Origin: Bacillus mojavensis RO-H-1 = KCTC 3706
Lineage (GTDB): Bacteria > Bacillota > Bacilli > Bacillales > Bacillaceae
Direction: 5' to 3'
Assembly: GCF_000245335.1 (NCBI RefSeq)
Contig: NZ_JH600280.1
Coordinates: 62,001-126,000 of the forward strand
DNA: 64,000 nt
In this document: positions 35,464 through 49,020 of the stretch, piece by piece
How positions within the stretch are numbered: the stretch's first letter is position 1
How the letters are laid out: each line of letters begins with the position of its first letter
Position numbers and translations under genes: made by a program
Notes under the pieces: generated by a model
The model's input: only the letters and a program-made list of their open reading frames with translations
Told to the model about the DNA's origin: nothing
Database searches by the model: none

Positions 35464-36174
35464 ATGTTAAAGTACCAGCAAATCGCAGAGGAAATTGAAA
35501 AGTATATAGAAGAACACGAGCTTAAACAGGGAGATAAGCTGCCAGTGCTAGAAACCCTCATGGCCCAGTTTGAGGTCAGCAAAAGCACAATCACAAAGTC
35601 TCTGGATCTACTAGAACAAAAAGGCGCGATCTTTCAGCTCAGAGGAAGCGGCATTTTCGTCCGAAAGCATAAACGAAAAGGCTACATCAGCCTCCTGTCG
35701 AATCAGGGATTTAAAAAAGACCTCGAGGATTTCAATGTCACCTCAAAGGTCATTGAGCTGGACGTGAGAAAACCAACACCGGAAGCGGCAGAAAACCTCA
35801 ACATCGGACTTGATGAAGACGTCTACTATGTCAAAAGGGTCCGCTATATCAACGGACAAACCCTATGCTACGAAGAATCCTATTACAACAAATCCATCGT
35901 GACGTACTTGAACAAGGAAATTGTGTCTCACTCAATCTTTCATTACATCCGGGAAGGATTGGGACTGAAGATTGGCTTTTCTGATTTGTTTCTTCACGTG
36001 GGTCAGCTTAATGAAGAAGAAGCGGAGTACTTGGGGCTGGAGGCAGGACTTCCGAAGCTTTATATAGAAAGTATTTTTCATCTGACAAATGGGCAGCCGT
36101 TTGATTTCTCGAAAATCTCTTATCATTATGAGCAGTCGCAGTTTGTGGTGCAGGCGAATAGTTTTTTGTTGTAG
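35464..36174 (+). CDS. yydK: YydK, GntR/HutC-family transcriptional regulator
   Basis: A 236-residue HutC-subfamily GntR protein. ATG 35464 has GAGG 7 bp upstream; the ATG at 35458 is too close. Winged helix: YQQIAEEIEKYIEEHELKQG and VSKSTITKSLDLLEQKGAI (about 3-60). The C-terminal UTRA ligand domain shows VYYVKRVRYINGQTLCYEESYYN (two blocks, about 122-145) and the closing PFDFSKISYHYEQSQF. Such proteins sense phosphorylated sugars; it probably represses the divergent PTS-bglA operon. Confidence 0.92.
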   Translation: MLKYQQIAEEIEKYIEEHELKQGDKLPVLETLMAQFEVSKSTITKSLDLLEQKGAIFQLRGSGIFVRKHKRKGYISLLSNQGFKKDLEDFNVTSKVIELDVRKPTPEAAENLNIGLDEDVYYVKRVRYINGQTLCYEESYYNKSIVTYLNKEIVSHSIFHYIREGLGLKIGFSDLFLHVGQLNEEEAEYLGLEAGLPKLYIESIFHLTNGQPFDFSKISYHYEQSQFVVQANSFLL

Positions 36175-36243
36175 GGCAGCTGCTTCTTGCTTCTAATGAA
36201 GAAACACCCCTCTTCTATCAATCAACTATGGAAGGTGGTCGAC

Positions 36244-36402
36244 ATGTACAAAATCATCATTCCTGCCATACTAGCCATCTTCGTGCTCTGGATACTATTA
36301 CAGATTTCACTAGAGATGAGCATTTTTAAGAATCCAATGAATTACTTTATCGTATTTATTATCTTTTTCCTCTTTATCAAGATGGCGAAAGAAAAACATT
36401 GA
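36244..36402 (+). CDS. Small membrane protein, unknown
   Basis: A 52-residue protein from ATG 36244 with GGAAGGTGG 6 bp upstream. Two hydrophobic stretches (IIIPAILAIFVLWILLQI and NYFIVFIIFFLFIKM) and a basic C terminus. It lies between yydK and a good terminator. In strain 168 I recall the yydFGHIJ epipeptide operon between yydK and fbp; that operon is absent here. No function can be proposed. Confidence 0.65.
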   Translation: MYKIIIPAILAIFVLWILLQISLEMSIFKNPMNYFIVFIIFFLFIKMAKEKH

Positions 36403-36412
36403 ACGGCTATAG

Positions 36413-36446
36413 GAAACCAGATTTGTACTGAAATCTGGTTTTTTTG
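36413..36446 (+). terminator. Terminator after yydK and the small membrane gene
   Basis: AAACCAGATTT-gtactg-AAATCTGGTTTTTTT. Confidence 0.9.
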
Positions 36447-36643
36447 TGCTTCACTTTTATTCATCCATTTTATCCTCACTCATTTCGCCACCCTCTTTCC
36501 CTCATTTTCATTGTCTCTAAAAGGAGTTATGCGTTACTATCGTATAAGGGTCCAATGATGAAAAATAATGACATACTTTTAAATTAACCTGATATGCACA
36601 TGCTCATAAATAGGGGTTTATTCTAAAAAGGGGATGGACGGTT

Positions 36644-38569
36644 TTGGAAAGCAAGTACTTAGATCTACTCGCACAAAAATACGATTGTGAAGAAAAAGTG
36701 GTAACGGAAATCATTAATTTGAAAGCGATACTGAACCTGCCAAAAGGCACTGAGCATTTTGTCAGTGATTTGCACGGGGAATATCAAGCATTCCAGCACG
36801 TGCTGCGTAATGGTTCGGGACGAGTAAAAGAGAAGATACGCGACATTTTCAGCGGTGTCATTTACGATAGAGAAATTGACGAATTAGCAGCATTGGTCTA
36901 CTATCCGGAAGACAAACTGAAGTTAATCAAACATGACTTTGATGCGAAAGCAGCATTAAACGAGTGGTATAAAGAAACGATTAACAGAATGATTAAGCTC
37001 GTTTCTTATTGCTCCTCGAAGTATACCCGCTCCAAACTGCGCAAAGCACTGCCTGCCCAGTTTGCTTATATTACGGAGGAGCTGCTATACAAAACAGAAC
37101 AAGCTGGCAACAAGGAGCAATATTACTCCGAAATCATTGACCAGATCATTGAACTTGGCCAAGCCGATAAGCTGATCACCGGTCTTGCTTACAGCGTTCA
37201 GCGATTGGTGGTCGACCATCTGCATGTGGTCGGCGATATTTACGACCGCGGACCGCAGCCGGATCGGATTATGGAGGAGCTGATCAATTATCATTCAGTC
37301 GATATTCAGTGGGGAAATCACGATGTCCTTTGGATCGGCGCCTACTCCGGTTCCAAAGTGTGCCTGGCCAATATTATCCGTATCTGTGCCCGCTATGACA
37401 ACCTGGACATTATTGAAGACGTGTACGGCATCAACCTGAGACCGCTGATGAACCTGGCCGAAAAATATTACGATGATAATCCAGCGTTCCGTCCAAAAGC
37501 AGACGAAAACAGACCGGAAGAAGAGATTAAGCAAATCACAAAAATCCATCAAGCCATTGCCATGATCCAATTCAAGCTTGAGAGCCCGATTATCAAGAGA
37601 CGGCCGAACTTTAATATGGAGGAACGGCTGTTACTAGAAAAAATTGATTATGATAAAAATGAAATTACGCTGAATGGAAAAACATATCAACTGGAAAACA
37701 CCTGCTTTGCGACAATCAATCCGGAACAGCCGGATCAGCTATTAGAAGAAGAAGCAGAAGTCATAGACAAGCTGCTATTCTCTGTCCAGCATTCCGAAAA
37801 GCTGGGCCGCCATATGAATTTTATGATGAAAAAAGGCAGCCTTTATTTAAAATATAACGGCAACCTGTTGATTCACGGCTGTATTCCTGTCGATGAAAAC
37901 GGCAATATGGAAACGATGATGATTGAGGATAAACCGTATGCGGGCCGTGAGCTGCTCGATGTATTTGAGCGGTTCTTGCGGGAAGCGTTTGCCCACCCGG
38001 AAGAAACCGATGATCTGGCGACAGATATGGCTTGGTATTTATGGACAGGCGAGTACTCCTCCCTCTTCGGAAAACGCGCCATGACGACATTTGAGCGGTA
38101 TTTCATTAAAGAAAAGGAAACACATAAAGAAAAGAAAAACCCGTATTATTATTTACGCGAAGACGAGGCAACCTGCCGAAACATCTTGGCAGAATTCGGC
38201 CTCAATCCAGATCATGGCCATATCATCAACGGCCATACGCCAGTAAAAGAAATCGAAGGAGAAGACCCAATCAAAGCAAACGGAAAAATGATCGTCATCG
38301 ACGGCGGCTTCTCCAAAGCCTACCAATCCACAACAGGCATCGCCGGCTACACGCTGCTATACAACTCCTACGGCATGCAGCTCGTCGCCCATAAACATTT
38401 CAACTCCAAGGCAGAAGTCCTAAGCACCGGAACCGATGTGTTAACGGTGAAACGATTAGTGGATAAAGAGCTTGAACGGAAGAAAGTGAAGGAAACGAAT
38501 GTGGGTGAGGAACTGCTGCAGGAAGTTGCGATTTTGGAGAGTTTGCGGGAATATCGGTATATGAAGTGA
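36644..38569 (+). CDS. fbp: Fbp, class III fructose-1,6-bisphosphatase
   Basis: A 641-residue enzyme of the Firmicutes-type FBPase, which makes fructose 6-phosphate in gluconeogenesis. Metallophosphatase-like motifs: [15 protein letters not shown] (about 41-55), [15 protein letters not shown] (about 196-210), [12 protein letters not shown] (about 222-233) and [16 protein letters not shown] (about 527-542). TTG start with an AGGGGATGG site. An in-frame TAG at 36611-36613 blocks any longer form. Ends with a terminator; the SCC-like island begins about 270 bp downstream. Confidence 0.95.
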
Positions 38570-38578
38570 GGAAGTATA

Positions 38579-38611
38579 GAGTTCAGAGATGACATTCTCT
38601 GGGCTCTTTTT
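38579..38611 (+). terminator. Terminator of fbp
   Basis: GAGttCAGAGA-tgacat-TCTCTGggCTC followed by TTTTTTA. The rest of 38612-39100 has no gene that I can support; it holds the att-like site and the DUF262 terminator. Confidence 0.7.
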
Positions 38612-38840
38612 TACGGTTTATTCAACCTCTCTTTTTACACCTTAACTTGCTAACAAGTCTGATCATCTGCTTATTACTAGTACGTTAAATATACCAACTG
38701 AATTTGATTTTACAGGAAGTCAACACATCCTCGACTTTTTCACCTACACTGGCTATATCTTAAAACGATAAAGATAATTTTCACATCCATTATCCATTCC
38801 AGACAATAAAATAGCACTTTACTTATAACTTTTATCACTT

Positions 38841-38864
38841 CTACTTATGATACGGTTCACCGTG
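38841..38864 (-). other. att-like site: second copy of the rlmH 3' end (left end of island)
   Basis: The minus strand reads GGT GAA CCG TAT CAT AAG TAG, i.e. GEPYHK-stop, the exact C terminus of RlmH. It matches the true rlmH end (46449-46466) with differences at third codon positions and the stop codon, and shares the 10-bp core ACTTATGATA on the plus strand (TATCATAA on the minus strand). No rlmH frame lies upstream of it. TATCATAA is the core reported for SCC attachment sites. Confidence 0.8.
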
Positions 38865-38954
38865 GTAGGTCAAAGTGAGGTTTTGCACTCTAATAAGATA
38901 CATCTTTTTCTTCAAAGTTAGTTCCCGATTGAGTCACTGCTAGTAAAAATCACA

Positions 38955-38990
38955 AAAGGAGAAAGCGCGTTTTTTACGCCGCTTTCTCTA
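38955..38990 (-). terminator. Terminator of the CHAT-DUF262 operon
   Basis: Minus-strand GAGAAAGCG...CGCTTTCTC with an inner GCGT/ACGC stem, followed by CTTTTG. Confidence 0.6.
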
Positions 38991-39100
38991 TACTTATCTA
39001 ATAAATAATACTTCCTCAGCATTCTAGCTCAAATTTATTATTAACTTTAGTACTGCTTTACATTGCAATGATAATGTTTTACGGGCTAGTTCAACTTCTC

Positions 39101-40870
39101 TTAAATTAAACCTTTTCTCTTTAACTCTTCAATTATCTTTGATTCTTTAGCGGTTGGAATTGTAGAATGTTCTTCTTGAACTGGGAGATCTGATTGATTT
39201 AACCCCCAATCCTTTAGTAACATCAACAACTCGTCTGAAACCCTAATATCTCTTTCACGAATTTCATCTAGTCCCCAATTTTCATGCTGCTTAGAAAGGT
39301 CAAGTAATAACTGCACTTTTGATTTCTCATAACTCTCTTGTTTCTTTTTAAAGTAACCGTTACTTGCAATAATGTTCAGCTTTTTTTCAAAAGGAATTTT
39401 ATTCCCTATATGTTCCACTAACTCTTTTACCTCTCCATCTGAATTAATTGGAAAATAACTTGATTGCCATTTCTGAGGAAGTATATGCTCTATCTCCCAT
39501 TTCTCAGGGAGTAGTTCCTCTTGGCGTTGATAAGCAAGGATCTTTAATATCATACGGACTGTATTACGGTGAGCCGTCTTAACCTTTACTTTTAATTCTT
39601 GTTCATCTACTTTAGTAAAATTAAATATTGGCATAGACGATTTTATAATTTCAGAGTTTAATTTCAAGATTCCTCTTTTCACAGCATTAATAGTTGGTGT
39701 AACAATATACTGTGCCGCCAGATCTGCGAATAATTTCTTGAGAAATTTTAAAAATAGTTCTTCAAAATCTTGCGAACCAATATATTTGAGATAGTAAATG
39801 ACAACGGGATATTTCCAAAATTCATTTGGATACGAAGATAATCCATCAAGAACTTGTTTAATTTTAATATTTTTTGACCAATTCTCATCTTCAATTTCTA
39901 CACGATTATTAACTACAATCCATAAATTAAGCATCTTATTTAGATTGTTCATCACATCGCTCTTATATAACTGATTAAAATTATTCCTTGAATAGTATTT
40001 CCTTATCCCTGGTGTCGTTGTATTTCTATCATTTTCTAAGGCTCTTAAATAAAACATATAATAATAAAATAACTTTTGAATACTCTCATTGGCATTTGCA
40101 GCTTCTACATCTAGTTGTTGCCACTGTTCAATAAAAGCTGCTTTTCCCTCAGCATCCAATTGATTATAGATCTTCGCTTTAAAGATATCTGCGTCGGACA
40201 AAGCTAGTCCCCTATCATTCAGGGTGGAGAAGATTGTTAACGCCGTATCCTGTGAATCAGCGGTAATTGGTAATAAAATTGCTTTGTTCAAAACATTCCG
40301 GATGAACCAGAAAAACAACTCTGGCTCATTCGTAGTATAATTCTCTATTAGCTCTGTAAATATTTTATAGTTTAGCGAATAACTATCTTTTGCACCTTTT
40401 TCAATAGTGCCTTTGGTAAGTATTTTTGAAAAGGTTTGATTTCCTTCATCCCTCATCACCCTGGATTCAATAAGCGTTTTTTCGTAATCAACCTCAGCAG
40501 TTAATTCATCTTGTTCCCACAAAGCTGATTCAATTTGTCCCTTGAAATTTTTCACTTCTCTTGTTTCTGTCATTGTATCAAGTTTCGAGTAAAGTGCACG
40601 GAGCAATAGAAACAAAGAAGTAATGCGCTGTTGACCATCTATAATTTCCTGTTCCTCCTTCTCATTCTCATAGGAAACGATGGTCCCCAGAAAATAAGTG
40701 CTCTCGTTCTTATTTTTCGTGTATTCAACTAAATCATCAAAGAGCGTTTGAACTTGTTCGTCAGACCACGCATATGGACGTTGGTACTCAGGTATAATAA
40801 ACTTATTAACTTTGCCGGTCTCTAACAATTGTTTGACACTCTGTTTGTTCACTTCGATTGTTGTGGCCAT
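39101..40870 (-). CDS. DUF262-DUF1524 (GmrSD-like) nuclease
   Basis: A 589-residue protein with the two-domain layout of GmrSD-type modification-dependent nucleases. N-terminal DUF262: FIIPEYQRPYAW (about 20-31) and EIIDGQQRITSLFLLLRALY (about 75-94), containing the DGQQR nucleotide-binding motif. A long helical middle precedes C-terminal DUF1524 with EIEHILPQKW (about 457-466), the HNH-like His-Pro nuclease motif, then HIGNKIPFEKKLN. Family members cleave modified phage DNA using nucleotide hydrolysis. ATG at 40870 follows a GGAGAACAG sequence. It is the second gene of an operon with the CHAT gene, 82 bp downstream of it. Confidence 0.88.
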   Translation of the reverse strand: MATTIEVNKQSVKQLLETGKVNKFIIPEYQRPYAWSDEQVQTLFDDLVEYTKNKNESTYFLGTIVSYENEKEEQEIIDGQQRITSLFLLLRALYSKLDTMTETREVKNFKGQIESALWEQDELTAEVDYEKTLIESRVMRDEGNQTFSKILTKGTIEKGAKDSYSLNYKIFTELIENYTTNEPELFFWFIRNVLNKAILLPITADSQDTALTIFSTLNDRGLALSDADIFKAKIYNQLDAEGKAAFIEQWQQLDVEAANANESIQKLFYYYMFYLRALENDRNTTTPGIRKYYSRNNFNQLYKSDVMNNLNKMLNLWIVVNNRVEIEDENWSKNIKIKQVLDGLSSYPNEFWKYPVVIYYLKYIGSQDFEELFLKFLKKLFADLAAQYIVTPTINAVKRGILKLNSEIIKSSMPIFNFTKVDEQELKVKVKTAHRNTVRMILKILAYQRQEELLPEKWEIEHILPQKWQSSYFPINSDGEVKELVEHIGNKIPFEKKLNIIASNGYFKKKQESYEKSKVQLLLDLSKQHENWGLDEIRERDIRVSDELLMLLKDWGLNQSDLPVQEEHSTIPTAKESKIIEELKRKGLI

Positions 40871-40952
40871 TTTCTGTTCTCCGTTCTGTACCTTGTCATT
40901 ATGTATTAAGCTATTTTTTTATTAAAACCGTTCTTTTCATGATACTAGCTAA

Positions 40953-43040
40953 TTAAGAATCAAAGCGTTTTTGAAATTCTTCAAGGATTGGTTCTGTTAA
41001 AATCACATTTTCCGGCGTTCCAGACCATACATAGAAACAGGATTCAGGAAATACTCCTTGTGAAGCAATGGATGATTTGAACTCTTTTTGAAAGCCAGTT
41101 TCTTTAGCCATTTCCTCTAAGATACTGATTGTATCTGTATAGACAAAACCGTATCTTAACCGCCCAGTTGATCTAACCAATCCAAACTCTTCTATAATAC
41201 TATGTCCTCCATAAGTCTTGCTTTGTGCCCATTTTTTAAAGTTTCTTGAAGAAGAAATTATTTCGTGAACCGCATTTGATGCAACGACCATTCTCCAAGC
41301 ATCATTAAGAGTTCTCATCTTTCCACGTCCACTTAATGCTTCGCAAATATAAACAAAAAGCCTGATAGTGAGTATAGCATTACTGAAAACATTAACTGGT
41401 ATTAAAGTACCCAGAATAGCTTTTGCTCCTTTTCTATGAAGTAAATCTGTGACTGTTACCGCTCCTCCCCCCCGTGGTGATACATGACAAGCACTTAATA
41501 TTACTATAGGAGGTACTATTATCTCATCGTCATCAGCAGCAAACCATAAATCATCACCTATCCATAAACCCGCAACATTTTTTTTATCATCATAATACCC
41601 GTGAGCTGAAATTACTAATATGTCAGCATCTGTGTTCGCTCCAAGAAAAGTTTTAAGCTCTTCCACATCCTTTATTTCTGAATACGAAACATTAACATTC
41701 TTATTAGAATTTAACATTTCCACTGCCATTTTCCATGCACTATCAGAAGCTTTTCTAATACCATCTTCTGGAAGTAAACACTCTGCAATTACAACTTTAA
41801 ATCCCTTACCTATATATAATTCACCAACTCTAGGAAGTTCCATTTGAAGAGCTCGTGTTAAAGGAGTTAAAGATCTATACGAAATAGGCTTTATACAACA
41901 CAAAGGGTCATCATAACCAGGTAATATGGCAAGCCCTACAGGAAAATCAGTAAATGCTGTAATATGAGAAGCCCGATCTATTATCGTTAAACCCTCTTCT
42001 CCTACATGTGATGCTAATATTCTTCCAATTCTCTTCATGGAACTCCATACATATTTATTGGATATCTTTCTACCCTTACAATGTGTTTCTAATTGATTTA
42101 ATTCAATAAATATCCCCTTAGGTAAATAGCCGCCGTCGAACCAATAACCATTTCTCGCTGCAGCTCTGTGAATACCTAATATATCAACAACATCTTTTTC
42201 ATTTCTTTCCAATACATTATCTTCAATGTTACGTGGTCTATGGCGATTAGCTGTTCCTGAAAGAGTTATTACTGTAGGCACTTGTGCTAGATTTCTTTGT
42301 ATCTCATCTTGTTCTAACAATTCTTTTTCAGTTGGAGAGTAGTTGTTGTGGTCTTCCAAGTGAACCAATACTTTAATTCGTGAATGAAGCTGAATAGTAA
42401 AGTAATAGATAGCTTTATTTATAAAGTCGTAATTCCGTAGAGATTCAAGTATACCTTCATACCAATCTAACTGGTTTGCATTAAAGGATAACGGAATTGC
42501 CGAGATAGCCTCACCGCTTAATAGTTTTGGCTTAGTAATTAAAAATTCATCTTCACTATTTATTGTATTCATTAACTGTGTAATAGCTTTCCAGTGATTT
42601 TGTAACATTTCTTCGGATAGATCTGATATTTTTACATGGCCTAAAGGTGCCTTGCATTCTAAGGTGATTTTCTCTGCAGTCTCCGTGAAATTGTCTTCAC
42701 TTATAAATAACGTTGGTGGATAATTCACCAAAACTTTGCTCTCTATTATTTCAGATAAACTATATGATGGTATTAAGATGATACTGTGTGGTACTTCGTA
42801 TCCTTTTTCCAATACCTTTGGTTGCAAATCAAATGTATCTAAACCGTTTCGTGGAAGATGCAAACAATACCTAATTGCTGGGAGCACATTATTTAGCTCA
42901 GGATCAAATCCATGTATCGCTCCGTCGTACATTGTTGAAAACGGCTGATCAGTTATTGGAATATAATCCTCTATTGGTTTTTCCGCATTAAAAATCACAT
43001 AATAATTAAAATAAAGATCATTTACCCTTGAAATATCCAT
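40953..43040 (-). CDS. CHAT-domain (caspase-like) protease, unknown N-terminal region
   Basis: A 695-residue protein. The C-terminal third is a CHAT domain: the catalytic His in ADILVISAHGYYDDKKNVAG (about 473-492) and Cys in PPIVILSACHVSPRGGGAVT (about 508-527), followed by the usual DLLHRKGAKAILGTLIPV helix and strand. The first 400 residues carry no repeat or sensor domain that I recognise. CHAT proteases act in bacterial defence, e.g. the type III-E CRISPR protease Csx29. ATG 43040 has GAGGAGA about 13 bp upstream. First gene of the two-gene operon with the DUF262 nuclease. Confidence 0.82.
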   Translation of the reverse strand: MDISRVNDLYFNYYVIFNAEKPIEDYIPITDQPFSTMYDGAIHGFDPELNNVLPAIRYCLHLPRNGLDTFDLQPKVLEKGYEVPHSIILIPSYSLSEIIESKVLVNYPPTLFISEDNFTETAEKITLECKAPLGHVKISDLSEEMLQNHWKAITQLMNTINSEDEFLITKPKLLSGEAISAIPLSFNANQLDWYEGILESLRNYDFINKAIYYFTIQLHSRIKVLVHLEDHNNYSPTEKELLEQDEIQRNLAQVPTVITLSGTANRHRPRNIEDNVLERNEKDVVDILGIHRAAARNGYWFDGGYLPKGIFIELNQLETHCKGRKISNKYVWSSMKRIGRILASHVGEEGLTIIDRASHITAFTDFPVGLAILPGYDDPLCCIKPISYRSLTPLTRALQMELPRVGELYIGKGFKVVIAECLLPEDGIRKASDSAWKMAVEMLNSNKNVNVSYSEIKDVEELKTFLGANTDADILVISAHGYYDDKKNVAGLWIGDDLWFAADDDEIIVPPIVILSACHVSPRGGGAVTVTDLLHRKGAKAILGTLIPVNVFSNAILTIRLFVYICEALSGRGKMRTLNDAWRMVVASNAVHEIISSSRNFKKWAQSKTYGGHSIIEEFGLVRSTGRLRYGFVYTDTISILEEMAKETGFQKEFKSSIASQGVFPESCFYVWSGTPENVILTEPILEEFQKRFDS

Positions 43041-43064
43041 GAGCCTGTATTCTCCTCATTTTGT

Positions 43065-43082
43065 GAGTATTATAAAATACTC
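43065..43082. promoter_or_regulatory. Palindrome over the -10 of the CHAT operon
   Basis: GAGTATT-ATAA-AATACTC, perfect 7-bp arms. The minus-strand TATAAT (43074-43069) lies inside it, 29 bp before the CHAT start, so a bound repressor would block the promoter. The -35 is weak. Confidence 0.5.
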
Positions 43083-43204
43083 TAAATTAATTGATATATT
43101 CGTCCTATGGATTTCTGTTGAATCATTTTCCATTTATAATCACGACGCAATAACCATTACTTGGGGTTGTCCTAGAAAATGTTTGCTGGAACACTTACCA
43201 ATAA

Positions 43205-43282
43205 TTATACATTTCTTTGATTGAATACAATAGCCAAACTTGCAATTATGCCTAGAACTGTTCCTAATAAAAAGCATTTCAT
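43205..43282 (-). CDS. Tiny hydrophobic peptide (25 aa)
   Basis: ATG 43282 with AGGGGG just upstream. The peptide begins MKCFLLGTVLGIIASLAIVF and ends in QRNV: a single membrane helix with a short basic tail, the size and character of type I toxin or regulatory membrane peptides. It lies 36 bp downstream of a second tiny gene on the same strand. Not a peptide I recognise. Confidence 0.45.
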   Translation of the reverse strand: MKCFLLGTVLGIIASLAIVFNQRNV

Positions 43283-43318
43283 ATATCCCCCTGCTATTTG
43301 TTTTTGATAATGTTCTCT

Positions 43319-43384
43319 TTAAAAAGAGAGAAAGACCGATAAACCAAAGATGATTCCCGATTTGAATAATTCAATTGACGACAA
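43319..43384 (-). CDS. Tiny hydrophobic peptide (21 aa)
   Basis: TTG 43384 preceded by a perfect GAGGAGGTG at 7-bp spacing. The peptide starts MSSIELFKSGIIFGLSVF and ends LSF. One short membrane-like helix. The strong ribosome site is the main evidence that it is translated. It precedes the 25-residue ORF; both sit upstream of the CHAT operon on the same strand. Confidence 0.45.
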   Translation of the reverse strand: MSSIELFKSGIIFGLSVFLSF

Positions 43385-43593
43385 AGTTACTCACCTCCTC
43401 AATGAATCCTTAAATGAGGATAAGTTTATAACATACGGAGTTTTTATCCTTTTTTAAATAAAGCTAATAGGTTTCACTAATTGTCCACCCCTTATAAGAC
43501 CCATCCCAATATTTTGAATACCTCGTCTAACCTGTAACAAGTACACAACATTTGATTCACCACCATAATAGAAGAACACCCAGCATTTTAGTT

Positions 43594-43740
43594 TTAGTTT
43601 GTATCTTCTGGAAGCTCTTTTACCTCCTCATTGCTTATCTCCTGTACCGATATGGTTCTAACATCCACTTTCCTGTCCTTTAAAGCTAAATGTGAATGAT
43701 ATTCCTCAATGTAATTTCTGAATACATTAAGAATGTTCAT
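43594..43740 (-). CDS. Small hydrophilic protein downstream of the recombinase remnant (48 aa)
   Basis: ATG 43740 with AAAGGAG 11 bp upstream; 48 residues starting MNILNVFRNYIEEYHSHLA and ending ELPEDTN. Charged and probably helical. It follows the broken recombinase but is separated from it by a terminator. A role as accessory factor of the recombinase is only a guess. Plus-strand reading of this stretch shows nothing. Between 43400 and 43590 I see no other gene. Confidence 0.4.
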   Translation of the reverse strand: MNILNVFRNYIEEYHSHLALKDRKVDVRTISVQEISNEEVKELPEDTN

Positions 43741-43781
43741 ATAGTTATTTGCTCCTTTCATAGATCAAGTAAAATAGAAAA

Positions 43782-43824
43782 AGGGGGAGAGAACTCATCT
43801 GCAATAGATGAATACTCTCCCCCT
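43782..43824 (-). terminator. Terminator after the recombinase remnant
   Basis: GGGGGAGAG...CTCTCCCCC with inner CATCT/AGATG; the minus strand continues into TTTTTCTATTTTACTT. Confidence 0.8.
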
Positions 43825-44480
43825 CTATAGGTGAAGTGTTTTGCTACTTCTTTATTAAGTTGGATCTGTATAGTATCTACTTTCCTGTCCTGTCCTCTCC
43901 TATCGTTATCTTATGGATTAACAGGTGTAGCAACCTTTTTCTCTGTTCCCTAGTCAAAGACTCCTTGTATACATTCACAAAATTCTGCATAACCTGCTTA
44001 ACTAACTTGTAGGATACTGTTTCGATCGAGTTATTTCTAATAAGCTCTTCTAACGGTGTTAGTCTTTTCTCGATCCGCTCTTTTTCTTCGTTTAACTTGC
44101 CTAACCTTTCACTAAGATCCTTCCTGTTTACTGATCAAGTCATCTTCATATAATGTAAGTAAAGTACTTTACTCTTTTTCTTCTGGATAGAATCCAAAGT
44201 GTTCTTGAAGGCTTGGTATTCCGTTTGGATTGTTCCTTTATCTTGATTCTTACTATTAATCTTTTCTGTAATTTGTTTGATGAGTACCTCATTGTCTGCA
44301 AAGCTCGCTATTCTTTCTAGGACATATTTGTCTGCATAATTCGTTCTGACCCTGTTTGACCGACAAACAGTTGAATCCTTTGCTTTTCCATGCTCCGCAT
44401 ACATAGTATTTTAAAACCTTTTCTCTACATTCTTATTTCGGTTGGTGGTTTTCTCCAATACCATACCAGCTCCACATATT
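43825..44480 (-). pseudogene. Large serine recombinase, frameshifted C-terminal remnant
   Basis: Minus-strand pieces join into one protein tail: GAGMVLEKTTNRNKN, then (frame change near 44410) KYYVCGAWKSK, then VCRSNRVRTNYADKYVLERI with the helix to KKKSKVLYL, then (frame change near 44150) LYEDDLISKQEGS, then DLSERLGKLNEEKERIEKRL through REQRKRLLHLLIHKITIGED and finally VDTIQIQLNKEVAKHFTYRG. This is the zinc-ribbon (CGxCG...Cxx), coiled-coil and C-terminal region of large serine integrases such as Ccr and SpoIVCA-like proteins. The N-terminal resolvase domain with the catalytic Ser is absent, and at least three frameshifts are present. Non-functional. Confidence 0.8.
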
Positions 44481-44661
44481 TATACCCATCTAGTAAGTGT
44501 ACTTTTATGAACGTAGACTCTGTTGTTGTTGGAATACCTTGTATCGCGGTACATGGAAACAAATGTTATATTATAATAGCCGAAACTAACAATAAACGAT
44601 TATAATTAATTTAAGCAATACCACACACTAAAATGGATGTAAAGGTAGGTTTAAAATATTT

Positions 44662-45750
44662 ATGTTACTTAAGATTCCTATAAGAGAAGCAGAGTTTGTT
44701 ATGGCGCAAGGAGAACTAACATATCAAGAAATTCTAGATGATTTTAAAAGTACTGACTATGTGTTTATTCTTACTTATAATATCTCTGCAAGAAATACTA
44801 ATTTAATCAATACTTTAGAAACATTACCTTCAACTACCACTGTAGATATTATTACAAATATACCCAATAGGTTTGAAACGTATTATGGTAAGGCTAGAAA
44901 TAGAGCGAGAGAAGTTATAAATGTATATCTGAATAAGCTTGATCCTGAAAATTTTAATTCTATATTCAGTACTCATTTTAATTTTAAAAATCATGCCAAG
45001 ATTATTATGACGAATAATATAGTATTTATCGGTTCATCTAACTTCTCGGATGAATCAGCGAATAATATTGAATGCGGAATTATTTCTCGTGATGCCGACT
45101 TTATTAGTACGCTTAAAAATTCTATAGTGCCACGATTAAAAGAAAATTCTGAAGAGTACTATTCTGACGACTCTATAAATAAACTAAGAATCGAGTACAA
45201 GTTTAATTACTATTTATTATCCAGTATAATTGAAGAGGTTCGAATGTCATGCCATAGTGTATATGACGAACGAGGGTTGTATCAGGAGTTTTTGGATCTA
45301 ATGAATAGTTATCACTTCTCTGAAAACCTCGATAAGCTAACATCAACAATGGATGACTTTGAAAGTACTTGTTATAGAATAATGCATCAACTTGAAGAAT
45401 TAGGAATCGAAACTGAGGACATTAATCAAATTGTTGAGGACCTTGGTACGGAAGAAATCCAATTAATGTATTCTACTGATACAAGTATTGATGAATTCTT
45501 ATCGTTTAATACTCAAGAGTATGCGATGGAATACATTAATGAGAATGAACATTCTGCTGACTTCGATGATGTAGATGAATTTCGTGCTTCTGCCTCTCAA
45601 ATAGCTTATGAAAAAGAAAGCGAACTGGCAGAATTAGCAGAGACTGATGTTGAAAAATTTTTGGAAGAATTAGATGAACTAAAAGATAAAGCGGAAGATT
45701 TATTATCTTTAATCCCGCAAAGCATAAATGAAAATATCGATAATACTTAA
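44662..45750 (+). CDS. Phospholipase D-fold protein, single HKD-type motif
   Basis: A 362-residue protein. Residues about 110-135 read NHAKIIMTNNIVFIGSSNFS then DESANN: the HxK...GSxN pattern of one PLD half-site, so a dimer would form the active site as in Nuc/BfiI-type nucleases. The N-terminal part is alpha/beta; the C-terminal 150 residues are acidic and helical. Only a weak site (GGTAGG at 44643-44648) lies before ATG 44662; ATG 44701 is an alternative. Single gene, AT-rich, inside the island. A defence nuclease is plausible, unproven. Confidence 0.75.
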   Translation: MLLKIPIREAEFVMAQGELTYQEILDDFKSTDYVFILTYNISARNTNLINTLETLPSTTTVDIITNIPNRFETYYGKARNRAREVINVYLNKLDPENFNSIFSTHFNFKNHAKIIMTNNIVFIGSSNFSDESANNIECGIISRDADFISTLKNSIVPRLKENSEEYYSDDSINKLRIEYKFNYYLLSSIIEEVRMSCHSVYDERGLYQEFLDLMNSYHFSENLDKLTSTMDDFESTCYRIMHQLEELGIETEDINQIVEDLGTEEIQLMYSTDTSIDEFLSFNTQEYAMEYINENEHSADFDDVDEFRASASQIAYEKESELAELAETDVEKFLEELDELKDKAEDLLSLIPQSINENIDNT

Positions 45751-45889
45751 TACATCTAGCACAACTTTCTGGGTTGTGTTTTTCTAATGCTATGCAGAAG
45801 GTAATGTACTTTAATGAAAGATACTAATCATTGCTAATTGGATTTTTAGTAAGACTCATAAAAATTACGTATAATACAATTCAAAATAA

Positions 45890-45928
45890 GAAAAGAAAAA
45901 AAGACCAAACGGACATATGTCTGGTCTG
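45890..45928 (-). terminator. Terminator after the MerR remnant
   Basis: Minus-strand AGACCAGACA-TA-TGTCcgttTGGTCT followed by TTTTTTTCTTTTCTT. Confidence 0.75.
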
Positions 45929-45935
45929 TGTAATC

Positions 45936-46329
45936 TTATGCAATTTGTATGTTTTGTTTTCTAAACTCTTGTTCACGCTTATCAAAGTAATTCAGCTTAA
46001 TTTTTACTTTCTCAAATGCTTTATCCAATTGCTGTTGTTGTTCTTCTAAGGTTTTTCGGTTTCTAACAAGAATGATCGCTTTAGATCAAAATTGTCCTCC
46101 CCACTCACTGTAAGTGTTATCATTTTTCTCAGATCATTTACTGACATTCAAGTTACTTTTAAACAAGTTATAAAATCTAACCAACCCAGATTTTCTTTTC
46201 GAAATACCCGATACCCATTATCGTTCCCCCATTAAAAAGGGGGGAGCCCTTCACTTTCATAATATCTGATGGTATAGGCAGGTATGTTCATCATTTCATT
46301 TCTGAAACTTCTTTAATTGTGTATCTCAT
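45936..46329 (-). pseudogene. MerR-family regulator, frameshifted
   Basis: Minus strand from ATG 46329: MRYTIKEVSEM, frameshift, then MNIPAYTIRYYESEGLLP (the MerR helix-turn-helix), a damaged wing, and after further frame changes RKTLEEQQQQLDKAFEKVKI and LNYFDKREQEFRKQNIQIA-stop, the C-terminal coiled coil. At least three lesions. An ordinary MerR regulator would be about 130 residues, as here. Confidence 0.75.
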
Positions 46330-46448
46330 ATTGGTTAACCCTCACTGTTTAATATAACTTCACATGCTTAAATAAATAAACCTTAAAGTGGACTTTAATG
46401 CAAATAGGGATAGTTGTATCTATAACAATGTATCATAAAAAACCCCAT

Positions 46449-46466
46449 TCACTTATGATAAGGCTC
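46449..46466 (-). other. att-like site at the true rlmH 3' end (right end of island)
   Basis: Codons GAG CCT TAT CAT AAG TGA (EPYHK-stop) of rlmH. It shares the core TATCATAA with the second copy at 38841-38864. Confidence 0.75.
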
Positions 46467-46928
46467 CCCACGATTAATCCGAAAAGCCCGATAAATCTGC
46501 TCGACTAGAATCAACCGCATCAACTGATGAGGAAACGTCATTTTCGAGAACGAAAGCTTGTCATCCGCTCGCTTCATCACCGCGTCACTCAATCCGAGTG
46601 ATCCGCCGATGACGAAGGTGACTTTGCTTTTTCCATAAGTAGCCAGCTTATCTATTGTATCGGCTAGTTCTTCGGATGTTTTCATTTTTCCTTCGATGGC
46701 GAGGGCGATGACGTGGGCGTCGGGGCTGATTTTGGATAGGATGCGGTCGCCTTCTTTGTCTTTTATGATTTTCATGTCCTGGTCGCTTAGGTTTTCCGGC
46801 GCTTTTTCGTCCGGGAGTTCGATGATGTCGATTTTTGCGTAGGCCGAAAGTCGTTTGGTGTATTCTTCAATGCCTTGCTTGAGGTATTTTTCTTTTAGTT
46901 TTCCGATTGTCACAATATTGATATTCAC
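46449..46928 (-). CDS. rlmH: RlmH, 23S rRNA pseudouridine1915 N3-methyltransferase
   Basis: A 159-residue SPOUT methyltransferase (formerly yydA, OrfX in staphylococci) that methylates pseudouridine 1915 in helix 69 of 23S rRNA. GTG start with GGGGATGA upstream. SPOUT knot residues: [10 protein letters not shown] (about 73-82), [11 protein letters not shown] (about 104-114) and [25 protein letters not shown] toward the C terminus (two blocks), ending INRGEPYHK. Its 3' end is the SCC target in staphylococci and here borders the island. Confidence 0.96.
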
Positions 46929-47008
46929 AGGTCATCCCCACTTTAGAAACAAGTTATTCATATATGTTGTCCACAATTGTGGATATCTTTTCTGTATTTT
47001 GTGTAAGA

Positions 47009-47179
47009 TCATTCGTTCCCCACTATATATACTGCGGGGTCTCCACATAATTCACAGGCTGTGGATAAACTGTTAGTATGTTCGATTTTTCTGATTTCGG
47101 GCGGCAGCTCGTGGTCGTCTATGTACATATCCAGCACGGTTTCGATGTGTTCTTCACAGGAATAATACGTTTGTTTCAT
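47009..47179 (-). CDS. yyzF: YyzF, CxxH/CxxC small protein
   Basis: A 56-residue protein from ATG 47179 with CGGAGGA upstream; a longer frame to 47206 overlaps this site. It has CEEH near residue 8 and CELC near residue 44, a likely zinc site, with a short linker carrying DMYIDDHELPPEI. This CxxH/CxxC family is common next to rlmH in Bacillus. Function unknown. Confidence 0.75.
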   Translation of the reverse strand: MKQTYYSCEEHIETVLDMYIDDHELPPEIRKIEHTNSLSTACELCGDPAVYIVGNE

Positions 47180-47362
47180 GTCAAATCCTCCGATGGTTTC
47201 TTGCATTTTTGCAAATATTCTCTTCCCAATATAACCTATTTATTCACATGTTAGTAGTGCTTCGGGCTGAGTTTTATCCACAAATCGACAAACAAGCTGT
47301 TGATGACTCTATTTCGCTCGTATGTTAGTTTGGTTGTAACCGATGTTTGGGGAGGTCTGCAT

Positions 47363-47776
47363 GTGCGCTTCAGATTGGTTTGGCTTTTTGTGATCATGTT
47401 GCTGCTTCCTGGGTGTCAGTCGTCTTATTGGGTGTTAGAGAAGGATCGGATCGGTGAAGGGAGTTCCGAGCTAGAATTATACGCAAATTACCTTCAAACA
47501 CATGATGAAGTGAAAGGATACCAAGTCTTCACCATATCAGAAGGCAAAAAAATGGTCGTGGTGTCTCTCGGAAGCAGCGAGAATGATAAGAAGCTTGATG
47601 TGTCAGACGTCAAATTCTCGCCTAAAGAAACGATTGTAACTGTGAAACGAAAGCCGGCTCCCGAGGAAAATGAGAAAAGCCCTTATATTCTGATTGGACT
47701 GGACAAAATCGAAGGGGATTTAATTGTCCAAGACGAATCAGGAGATCGCTTTGAAGAAACCGATTATCAGCAATAA
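47363..47776 (+). CDS. yycS: Lipoprotein of unknown function
   Basis: About 137 residues from GTG 47363, which has GGGGAGG 7 bp upstream. A short basic N terminus and hydrophobic core (VWLFVIMLLLPG) lead to a lipobox LLPGC, so the mature protein would be lipid-anchored outside the membrane. The rest is hydrophilic with repeated beta-like segments and no catalytic motif. The symbol is assigned by position between the yyd and yyc gene series, not by recognised sequence. Confidence 0.7.
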   Translation: MRFRLVWLFVIMLLLPGCQSSYWVLEKDRIGEGSSELELYANYLQTHDEVKGYQVFTISEGKKMVVVSLGSSENDKKLDVSDVKFSPKETIVTVKRKPAPEENEKSPYILIGLDKIEGDLIVQDESGDRFEETDYQQ

Positions 47777-47811
47777 AGCCGGCGTTCGATTGAACCGCCG
47801 GCTTTTTTTTA
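47773..47811. terminator. Bidirectional terminator between yycS and yycR
   Basis: AAAGCCGGCG-ttcgattgaac-CGCCGGCTTTTTTTT. Confidence 0.88.
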
Positions 47812-49020
47812 TTGCAATGTTCCATGCGGATCAATCACAAATTTCTTCGCCGCTCCTTTGTCAAAGTCGCTGTAGCCTTTTGGCGCGTCGTCCAGAGAAA
47901 TGACAGTGGCGTTGACGGCTTTTGCGATTTGCGCTCTGCCGCTGAGGATCGCTTTCATCAAGTTGCGGTTGTATGTCATTGCGGGTGTTTGTCCGGTGAC
48001 GAAGGTGTGGGCTTTGGCCCAGCCGAGTCCAAAGCGAATTTTTAAAGAGCCTGTTTTGGCGTCCGCATCCTTTGCACCGGGATCTTCGGTCACGTATAAG
48101 CCTGGAATACCGAGACTTCCGCCGACCTGAGTGACATCCATGATCGAGTTCAGCACGGCGGCCGGCGCTTCTCCTTGGCTGCCGTGTCCGGATGCTTCAA
48201 AGCCGACACAGTCCACTGCGGCATCAACGGTTGGTTCACCTAGTATTTGTTCAATTTGTTCGCCGAGGCGGTCGTGTTTTTGCACGTTGACGGTTTCACA
48301 GCCAAAGCTTCTCGCCTGTGCCAGTCTGTCGTCGTTCAAATCGCCGACAATCACTGTGGAAGCGCCAAGGAGCTGGGCGGAGTGTGCAGCTGCTAAACCG
48401 ACAGGCCCCGCTCCTGCGATATAAACGGTAGAACCCGTTTGCACGCCCGCTGTGTATGCCCCGTGGAAGCCGGTCGGAAAAATATCGGACAGCATCGTCA
48501 AATCGAGAATCTTTTCTAACGCCTGTTCTTTATCCGGGAAGACCAACAGCTGAAAATCGGCGTACGGCACCATGACGTATTCCGACTGCCCGCCGACCCA
48601 GCCGCCCATATCAACGTAGCCATAAGCCGATCCCGGCCGGTCCGGATTGACATTCAGGCACACATGCGTTTTCTGCGTTTTGCACATCACACAGCGTCCG
48701 CAGGCAATGTTAAAGGGAACGGATACGATGTCGCCTTTTTTGATAAATTCAACGTCCCGACCTGTTTCAATGACTTCTCCCGTAATTTCATGCCCGAGCA
48801 CCAAGCCATCAGGCGCCGTCGTGCGGCCTCTGACCATGTGCTGGTCGCTTCCGCAAATGTTTGTGGTAATCACCTTCAAAATCACCCCGTGCTCACATTT
48901 CCGATTCACATTCGCCTTCGGAACGCCGGGCCCGTCCCTCAAGATTAACTCCGGATAGCCGATATCCTCCACCGCCACGTTTCCTTTGCCTTTGTACACA
49001 ACCGCTTTGTTTCCTGTCAA
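47809..49020 (-). CDS. yycR: YycR, zinc-containing alcohol/formaldehyde dehydrogenase family protein
   Basis: A 403-residue medium-chain dehydrogenase. TTG 49020 has GGGAGG at 49033-49028 with 7-bp spacing; ATGs at 49026 and 49035 lack proper sites. Catalytic zinc: CGSDQHMVRG (about 51) and GHEITGEV (about 70). Structural zinc: four Cys in CGRCVMCKTQKTHVC (about 97-111). Cofactor motif GAGPVGLAAAHSAQ (about 186-199). The arrangement matches the glutathione-independent formaldehyde dehydrogenase branch. Substrate not proven. Confidence 0.9.
   Translation of the reverse strand: MTGNKAVVYKGKGNVAVEDIGYPELILRDGPGVPKANVNRKCEHGVILKVITTNICGSDQHMVRGRTTAPDGLVLGHEITGEVIETGRDVEFIKKGDIVSVPFNIACGRCVMCKTQKTHVCLNVNPDRPGSAYGYVDMGGWVGGQSEYVMVPYADFQLLVFPDKEQALEKILDLTMLSDIFPTGFHGAYTAGVQTGSTVYIAGAGPVGLAAAHSAQLLGASTVIVGDLNDDRLAQARSFGCETVNVQKHDRLGEQIEQILGEPTVDAAVDCVGFEASGHGSQGEAPAAVLNSIMDVTQVGGSLGIPGLYVTEDPGAKDADAKTGSLKIRFGLGWAKAHTFVTGQTPAMTYNRNLMKAILSGRAQIAKAVNATVISLDDAPKGYSDFDKGAAKKFVIDPHGTLQ

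Follow-up and report, generated by a model that had tools for sequence, protein, structure and literature searches.

Why does the end of rlmH appear a second time, well away from the gene, in a relative of Bacillus subtilis? The window (the whole stretch of DNA analysed, 64,000 nucleotides of Bacillus mojavensis) contains the host gene rlmH on the minus strand (46449..46928; PF02590, 207.5 bits), the 3' end of which is the integration site considered here. Its product was 99% identical to RlmH of Bacillus tequilensis and 97% identical to that of B. halotolerans. The host gene fbp lies on the plus strand at the far side of the intervening island (36644..38569; PF06874, 944 bits). An earlier note on this DNA had proposed an island resembling the staphylococcal cassette chromosome (SCC) at the rlmH 3' end; the proposal is borne out by both arms of the element, a CcrB-type recombinase remnant, low GC content and related intact islands of this arm type that occupy the same site in other genomes. 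Positions 38857-46466 are very probably the decayed remnant of an SCC-like cassette.

SCC elements are recognised by insertion at the 3' end of rlmH, direct repeats, inverted arms, an intact ccr gene, a staphylococcal host and precise circular excision.

Repeat of the rlmH end

The 21-mer encoding GEPYHK plus stop was present twice on the minus strand, at 38841..38861 and at the true rlmH end (46449..46469). A degenerate search for this 21-mer (two mismatches or fewer) returned exactly two sites in the 64 kb, so that the second copy claimed in the earlier note, 7.6 kb from the true end, was found and no third. The note had given the copies as 38841-38864 and 46449-46466; their position was right, and their extent was corrected to 21 bp. 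As it had also stated, the differences between the copies fell at third codon positions and in the stop codon.

For the locus survey, the window was combined with 80 named rlmH loci (the best 80 of 576) and 43 same-genus loci, giving 124 sequences, of which 119 were distinct. Strand-control counts were made with a shorter pattern, PYHK-stop, rather than the full GEPYHK-stop. In the 1.48 Mb downstream of rlmH, the rlmH strand had 34 occurrences of this pattern, spread over 27 loci, and the opposite strand had none; in 0.81 Mb upstream of rlmH, neither strand had any. The window's two copies are identical at just 16 of 21 bases, as might be expected if the second were a chance match; this explanation was rejected on the strand control (34 versus 0) and on the shuffles, none of 100 of which contained two GEPYHK-stop sites, and its probability is practically nil. 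Displaced copies of the rlmH end are therefore widespread, and the window copy is not due to chance. A tRNA scan of the whole window and an Rfam scan of 36000-48000 each gave 0 matches.

Ends of the element

Near and far ends were aligned across the survey. In the commonest type, AACCTCATTTAGATACATCAC or close variants stood directly before the far copies and ATGAGGTTTTT directly after the near ends. Together, the near and far ends formed two inverted 24-nt arms flanking a central GA, the dinucleotide that opens the Glu codon of Gly-Glu-Pro-Tyr-His-Lys-stop.

Both arms are directly visible in the window, on the minus strand. The near (P') arm (46441..46464, 24 nt) contains the end of the Glu codon, Pro-Tyr-His-Lys-stop and then ATGGGGTT, a type-1 left-end pattern, and its central GA is at 46465-46466. 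The far (P) arm, AACCTCACTTTGACCTACCACGGT (38859..38882, 24 nt), adjoins the central GA of the far end at 38857-38858. The far arm was scored with a weight matrix built from 17 of the 33 far arms outside the window, selected by AACC[TCG]CA, with the window left out. It ranked first on both window strands (22.6 bits; next 12.4 bits). In other loci the matrix gave a few single matches of 14-23 bits away from obvious rlmH ends (in L022, L052 and L119, for example), so the score supports the far arm and is no proof by itself. The window's arms are less alike than those of many other loci (near ATGGGGTT, far AACCTCACTT).

On these sequences, the element is read as spanning 38857-46466, and symmetry places the predicted crossover at the GA of the Glu codon. 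The core TATCATAA, which the earlier note had found shared by the two copies, is indeed shared and lies in the half-site common to the host site and the element arm; as crossover centre it was rejected, the dyad centre being the GA just before it. The far copy (38841..38861), which had been taken for the end of another host's rlmH, is better read as a hybrid far att site, with the element arm to the left of the GA and the former rlmH end to its right. According to the available part of one report, CcrAB needs a central GA dinucleotide in its integration site (PMC10581047); the available part of another describes TATCATAA as conserved in SCC and ECC att sites, the 50-bp att sites of the Enterococcus cassette carrying it together with inverted repeats (PMC6222049). 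The window island thus shows three of the SCC features: it sits at the rlmH 3' end, both of its borders carry the rlmH end as a direct repeat, and its inverted terminal arms surround a central GA.

The far copy might instead have arisen as a partial rlmH duplication, through recombination after uptake of foreign DNA and with no att site involved, and longer rlmH fragments do exist downstream of rlmH in G014 (residues 62-159) and in G036. In the window, likeness to rlmH stops at the Gly codon and the preceding bases are the conserved arm, common to 17 other far copies; partial duplication was rejected for the window copy on this ground and is very improbable.

It is rather unlikely, though far less so than a duplication, that the two ends come from two SCC-like cassettes of the same arm type whose internal parts were lost, so that the interval is a fusion and was never one mobile unit. 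Tandem islands are common in related loci, and the near and far arms of the window differ, as such a fusion would allow; against it, the eight best matches of the arm matrix (itself of type 1) in the window include no further type-1 arm, and only two GEPYHK-stop sites are present at two mismatches or fewer. A single decayed SCC-like cassette is the preferred reading.

Two rlmH fragments outside the window were recorded separately. The fragment in L124 (G014; ~80% identity) sits on the distal side of an island, at roughly 10.1-10.4 kb downstream of rlmH and close to part of a recombinase, and a similar, shorter one was found ~6 kb downstream of rlmH in G036 (L146). Both look like rlmH-flanked DNA gained by recombination, not simple att copies.

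Recombinase remnant and its intact relative

Two further statements of the earlier note were confirmed for the interval, namely that its large serine recombinase is broken and that it holds accessory genes of defence type. The recombinase remnant is CcrB-like and lies at 43761..44524 on the minus strand, in two frames with 4 stops; only the zinc-ribbon and coiled-coil half was found, the catalytic half being absent. By tblastn, residues 306-517 of the recombinase of genome G016 aligned at 44524-43889 and residues 517-559 at 43886-43761. An 89-aa open piece of the remnant matched the NCBIfam model SCCmet_CcrB (6.3e-8) with 31.7 bits, far below the curated CcrB equivalog cut-off of 900.

The type of the remnant can be read directly from its matches. 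Its two pieces were searched separately, and for each the five best matches were the five type-1 recombinases (best 82.4 and 79.0 bits, 53% and 57% identity), versus best scores of 46.2 and 42.4 bits for recombinases of other types. From this ranking, the arm type and the recombinase type of the window are judged to agree, each on separate evidence. Within its own genome the remnant was the sole match to the G016 recombinase at 1e-12, and PF07508 had no match there. With only this stop-ridden C-terminal fragment in place of an intact ccr gene, the island is probably not self-mobile now. Pseudo-SCC is the term for SCC without a recombinase in the available part of one publication (PMC10581047).

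The island of G016 (L126) has both type-1 ends. Its genes encode a CcrB-like recombinase, a DUF927 protein with a Cch helix-turn-helix domain, DUF1643, RadC, a D12 methylase and an LXG-domain protein. The recombinase was ~40% identical to staphylococcal recombinases and scored 447.6 bits with the NCBIfam CcrB model (below its cut-off of 900), 346 with CcrC and 106.3 with CcrA. In the staphylococcal record used for comparison, a recombinase pair stands beside DUF927, DUF960 and DUF1643 genes; a stretch from a staphylococcal record, read for its att sites, contained neither an RlmH match nor a matching repeat. When 80 of 100 genomes were searched with the G016 recombinase, 13 of the 15 best matches lay 20 kb or less downstream of rlmH; the other two (both in G088) were on contigs with no rlmH found in the stretch examined, and each was followed by a type-1 far end. 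Similar cassettes recur at rlmH in related bacilli.

The LXG-domain protein of the G016 island, about 10.8-12.4 kb downstream of rlmH, also carries a Pre-toxin TG domain and is likely to be a bacterial competition protein.

Cargo and base composition

Three cargo families were identified directly in the window. A GmrSD-type protein (DUF262 plus C-terminal domain) of HEC-06 type is encoded at 39101..40870 on the minus strand, with both GmrSD domains in one protein (PF03235 9.5e-37, PF07510 9.2e-14, PADLOC HEC-06 2.6e-49). Beside it, on the same strand, lies the gene for a CHAT-protease protein (40953..43040; PF12770 4.7e-07) whose C-terminal half aligned with BovA (PADLOC, 1.1e-34, residues 313-683), the protein of Borvo, a single-gene CHAT protease system. 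On the plus strand, 44662..45750 encodes a PLD-like protein with weak matches (PF13091 25.1 bits, cut-off 27; DrmC 2.1e-06), its score for DISARM DrmC being 26.6 bits against a curated cut-off of 133. An NCBIfam search gave no match for the GmrSD or the CHAT protein. By homology only, the cargo would have a defence function.

Relatives of the GmrSD protein were found in four of 44 same-genus genomes, window included, all 11 kb or less downstream of rlmH: the window, G008 (83%, full-length), G031 (23%) and G040 (a 31-residue fragment). The CHAT protein was found in one of the 44, the window itself, and neither it nor the PLD-like protein had a match in other loci of the survey. In 1-kb bins, GC content was 31-37% in the island versus 38-55% in the flanking DNA.

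At positions 46010-46297, within the near end of the island, weak protein likeness (24-31%) was seen to small proteins in L012 and L071, that of L071 lying beside rlmH. This is probably another gene remnant.

Older cassette and proposed history

Directly beyond the far copy, 38699..38840 on the minus strand is seen to be what survives of the left end of an older, type-2 cassette. The flank beyond the far copy aligned in register with the bases that follow the rlmH stop of L060 (Aneurinibacillus), with 70.8% identity over 130 bp (2e-6 with the repeat excluded, 6.5e-11 with it included), and this was also the nearest match to the window's far sequence, which stands directly after rlmH in no same-genus relative. 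The flank also matched L132, L006 and L134 (1e-7 to 6e-5, repeat included); all four loci have type-2 arms. L115 has a comparable stretch close to fbp (76% over 88 bp), and in the window the conserved host DNA beside fbp begins at 38691, right where the older remnant ends. The locus looks composite, with ~140 bp of an older cassette of the other arm type beyond the far end of the younger one.

The same layering was observed elsewhere: far-copy flanks matched rlmH flanks in exact register in other species pairs, namely L009 versus L145 (93% over 300 bp), L034 versus L144 (87% over 277 bp) and L036 versus L046 (81% over 250 bp). Type 3 stands before type 2 in L190 and L191, and L193 has types 2, 1-like and 3-like.

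From the arms we infer an integration event as follows: a CcrB-like large serine recombinase, once encoded here, would have joined a circular element to the rlmH 3' end at the GA of the Glu codon. The right arm of the element re-encodes Pro-Tyr-His-Lys-stop, so the RlmH tail would be preserved while the old end moved to the distal border of the island. Loss of the catalytic half of the recombinase would have followed, leaving the cassette fixed and its defence-type genes kept. As to the order of insertions, an earlier cassette of another arm type would have landed at the same site, leaving only part of its left end between the far copy and fbp; on the simplest reading, a type-2 cassette came first and decayed until only this left end survived, after which the type-1 cassette inserted ahead of it. 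The window thus displays, in one B. subtilis relative, a cassette of SCC type in decay on top of an older layer.

In L112 (G002), a second fbp 3' end with its flank was found inside the rlmH-fbp interval, 7.1-7.3 kb downstream of rlmH, as if an island had arrived together with part of a donor's fbp.

Relation to known rlmH islands

The window shares with staphylococcal SCC and pseudo-SCC the rlmH 3' end as site, rlmH-end repeats with TATCATAA, the central GA and a CcrB-type recombinase, and the intact G016 relative shares with the staphylococcal record the DUF927/Cch and DUF1643 neighbours. Unlike staphylococcal SCC, the window has a Bacillus host, an rlmH that ends GEPYHK and not GEAYHK, a recombinase reduced to a fragment and no mec genes seen, and there is a single recombinase gene in the G016 relative. 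ECC, as described in the available part of its report, resembles the window island in its location at the rlmH 3' region, in the dyad symmetry of its att sites and in having known att remnants; it differs in possessing enterococcal ccrAB and demonstrated transfer, whereas the window island is without an active recombinase (PMC6222049).

Most of the reported SCC-like islands with Pol-SSB primases are located downstream of rlmH and have a second end that corresponds to the final rlmH bases; they have large serine recombinases, and some are in tandem. Most carry conflict genes, and examples include B. cereus, B. wiedmannii, B. mycoides and B. subtilis Bsp4 (PMC10061031, available part). The window island is like these in its place downstream of rlmH, the rlmH-end match at its second end, its large serine recombinase (here a remnant), its composite locus and its conflict genes. 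Those islands carry helicase and primase genes (PMC10061031); from the window island every gene of this kind is missing, through loss or from the start. SCC-like islands at rlmH outside staphylococci are already published, so the window is a new, decayed example. The wider pattern (arm types, layering across types and codon tracking) was not found in the literature searched, a partial search that makes a prior report possible.

Arm types, rlmH end codons and recombinase phylogeny

The left-end patterns of arm types 1, 2 and 3, which were defined after looking at the data, adjoined the rlmH stop in 31, 16 and 9 of the 119 distinct loci, where nearby rates predict 0.009, 0.087 and 0.012; none of the three followed the rlmH stop in the other 63. 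The last codons of rlmH varied with arm type. The stop was TAG in 15 of 16 type-2 versus 1 of 31 type-1 loci (Fisher 3e-10) and the last Lys codon was AAA in 15 of 16 versus 2 of 31 (3e-9), both counts being uncontrolled for shared ancestry of the loci; within the genus, TAG was found in 4 of 5 versus 1 of 14. Further upstream, the leading rlmH codons were the same in both types (listed, with no statistical test). This dependence of the final Lys and stop codons on arm type suggests that both are brought in by the element.

In E. coli RlmH, the C-terminal residues Tyr152, His153 and Arg154 are needed for catalysis, according to the available part of the report (PMC5430550). It is plausible that the site would be chosen because the RlmH end codons are never missing and the element brings a set of its own.

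For the phylogeny, 36 of 43 extracted recombinases were used (7 fragments, duplicates or near-copies were left out), and type labels were assigned from the ends (near end only for G049 and G059, far end only for G088). Types 1, 2a, 2b and 3 each formed one group at 100/100, and G089_x, a row with no assigned type, fell in 2b. The 22 rlmH-side recombinases and one staphylococcal CcrB stood on one side of a branch (90/94 and 84/93 in two analyses; not starred). Tests of CcrB inside versus beside the Bacillaceae group gave p 0.308, and tests of CcrA membership p 0.476.

In the bacilli examined, the islands at rlmH thus seem to be insertions stacked in a legible order, with arm type, recombinase type and rlmH end codons in agreement; where staphylococcal SCC came from and why this site is used can then be tested directly. 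A broader proposal is offered tentatively, as one that we would not yet favour over its opposite: in the Bacillaceae, a single radiating clade of Ccr-like recombinases may have used the rlmH 3' end as its target again and again, its arm specificities (three at least and perhaps five) being stacked in time order, each landing rewriting the codons of the RlmH C-terminal tail, and staphylococcal SCC being one branch. If this were true, the element would depend on, and would itself have to encode, part of the RlmH active site.

Further arm types were seen once each directly after the rlmH stop in L188 (G078) and L192 (G097), CATGGTT-like and GTAATGG-like, respectively, each with its own recombinase beside the near end. 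Finally, in the type-3 island of L021, 3.9-5.6 kb downstream of rlmH, the recombinase open frame crosses the far att site into the neighbouring DNA, and the C-terminus of this recombinase may depend on where the island sits.
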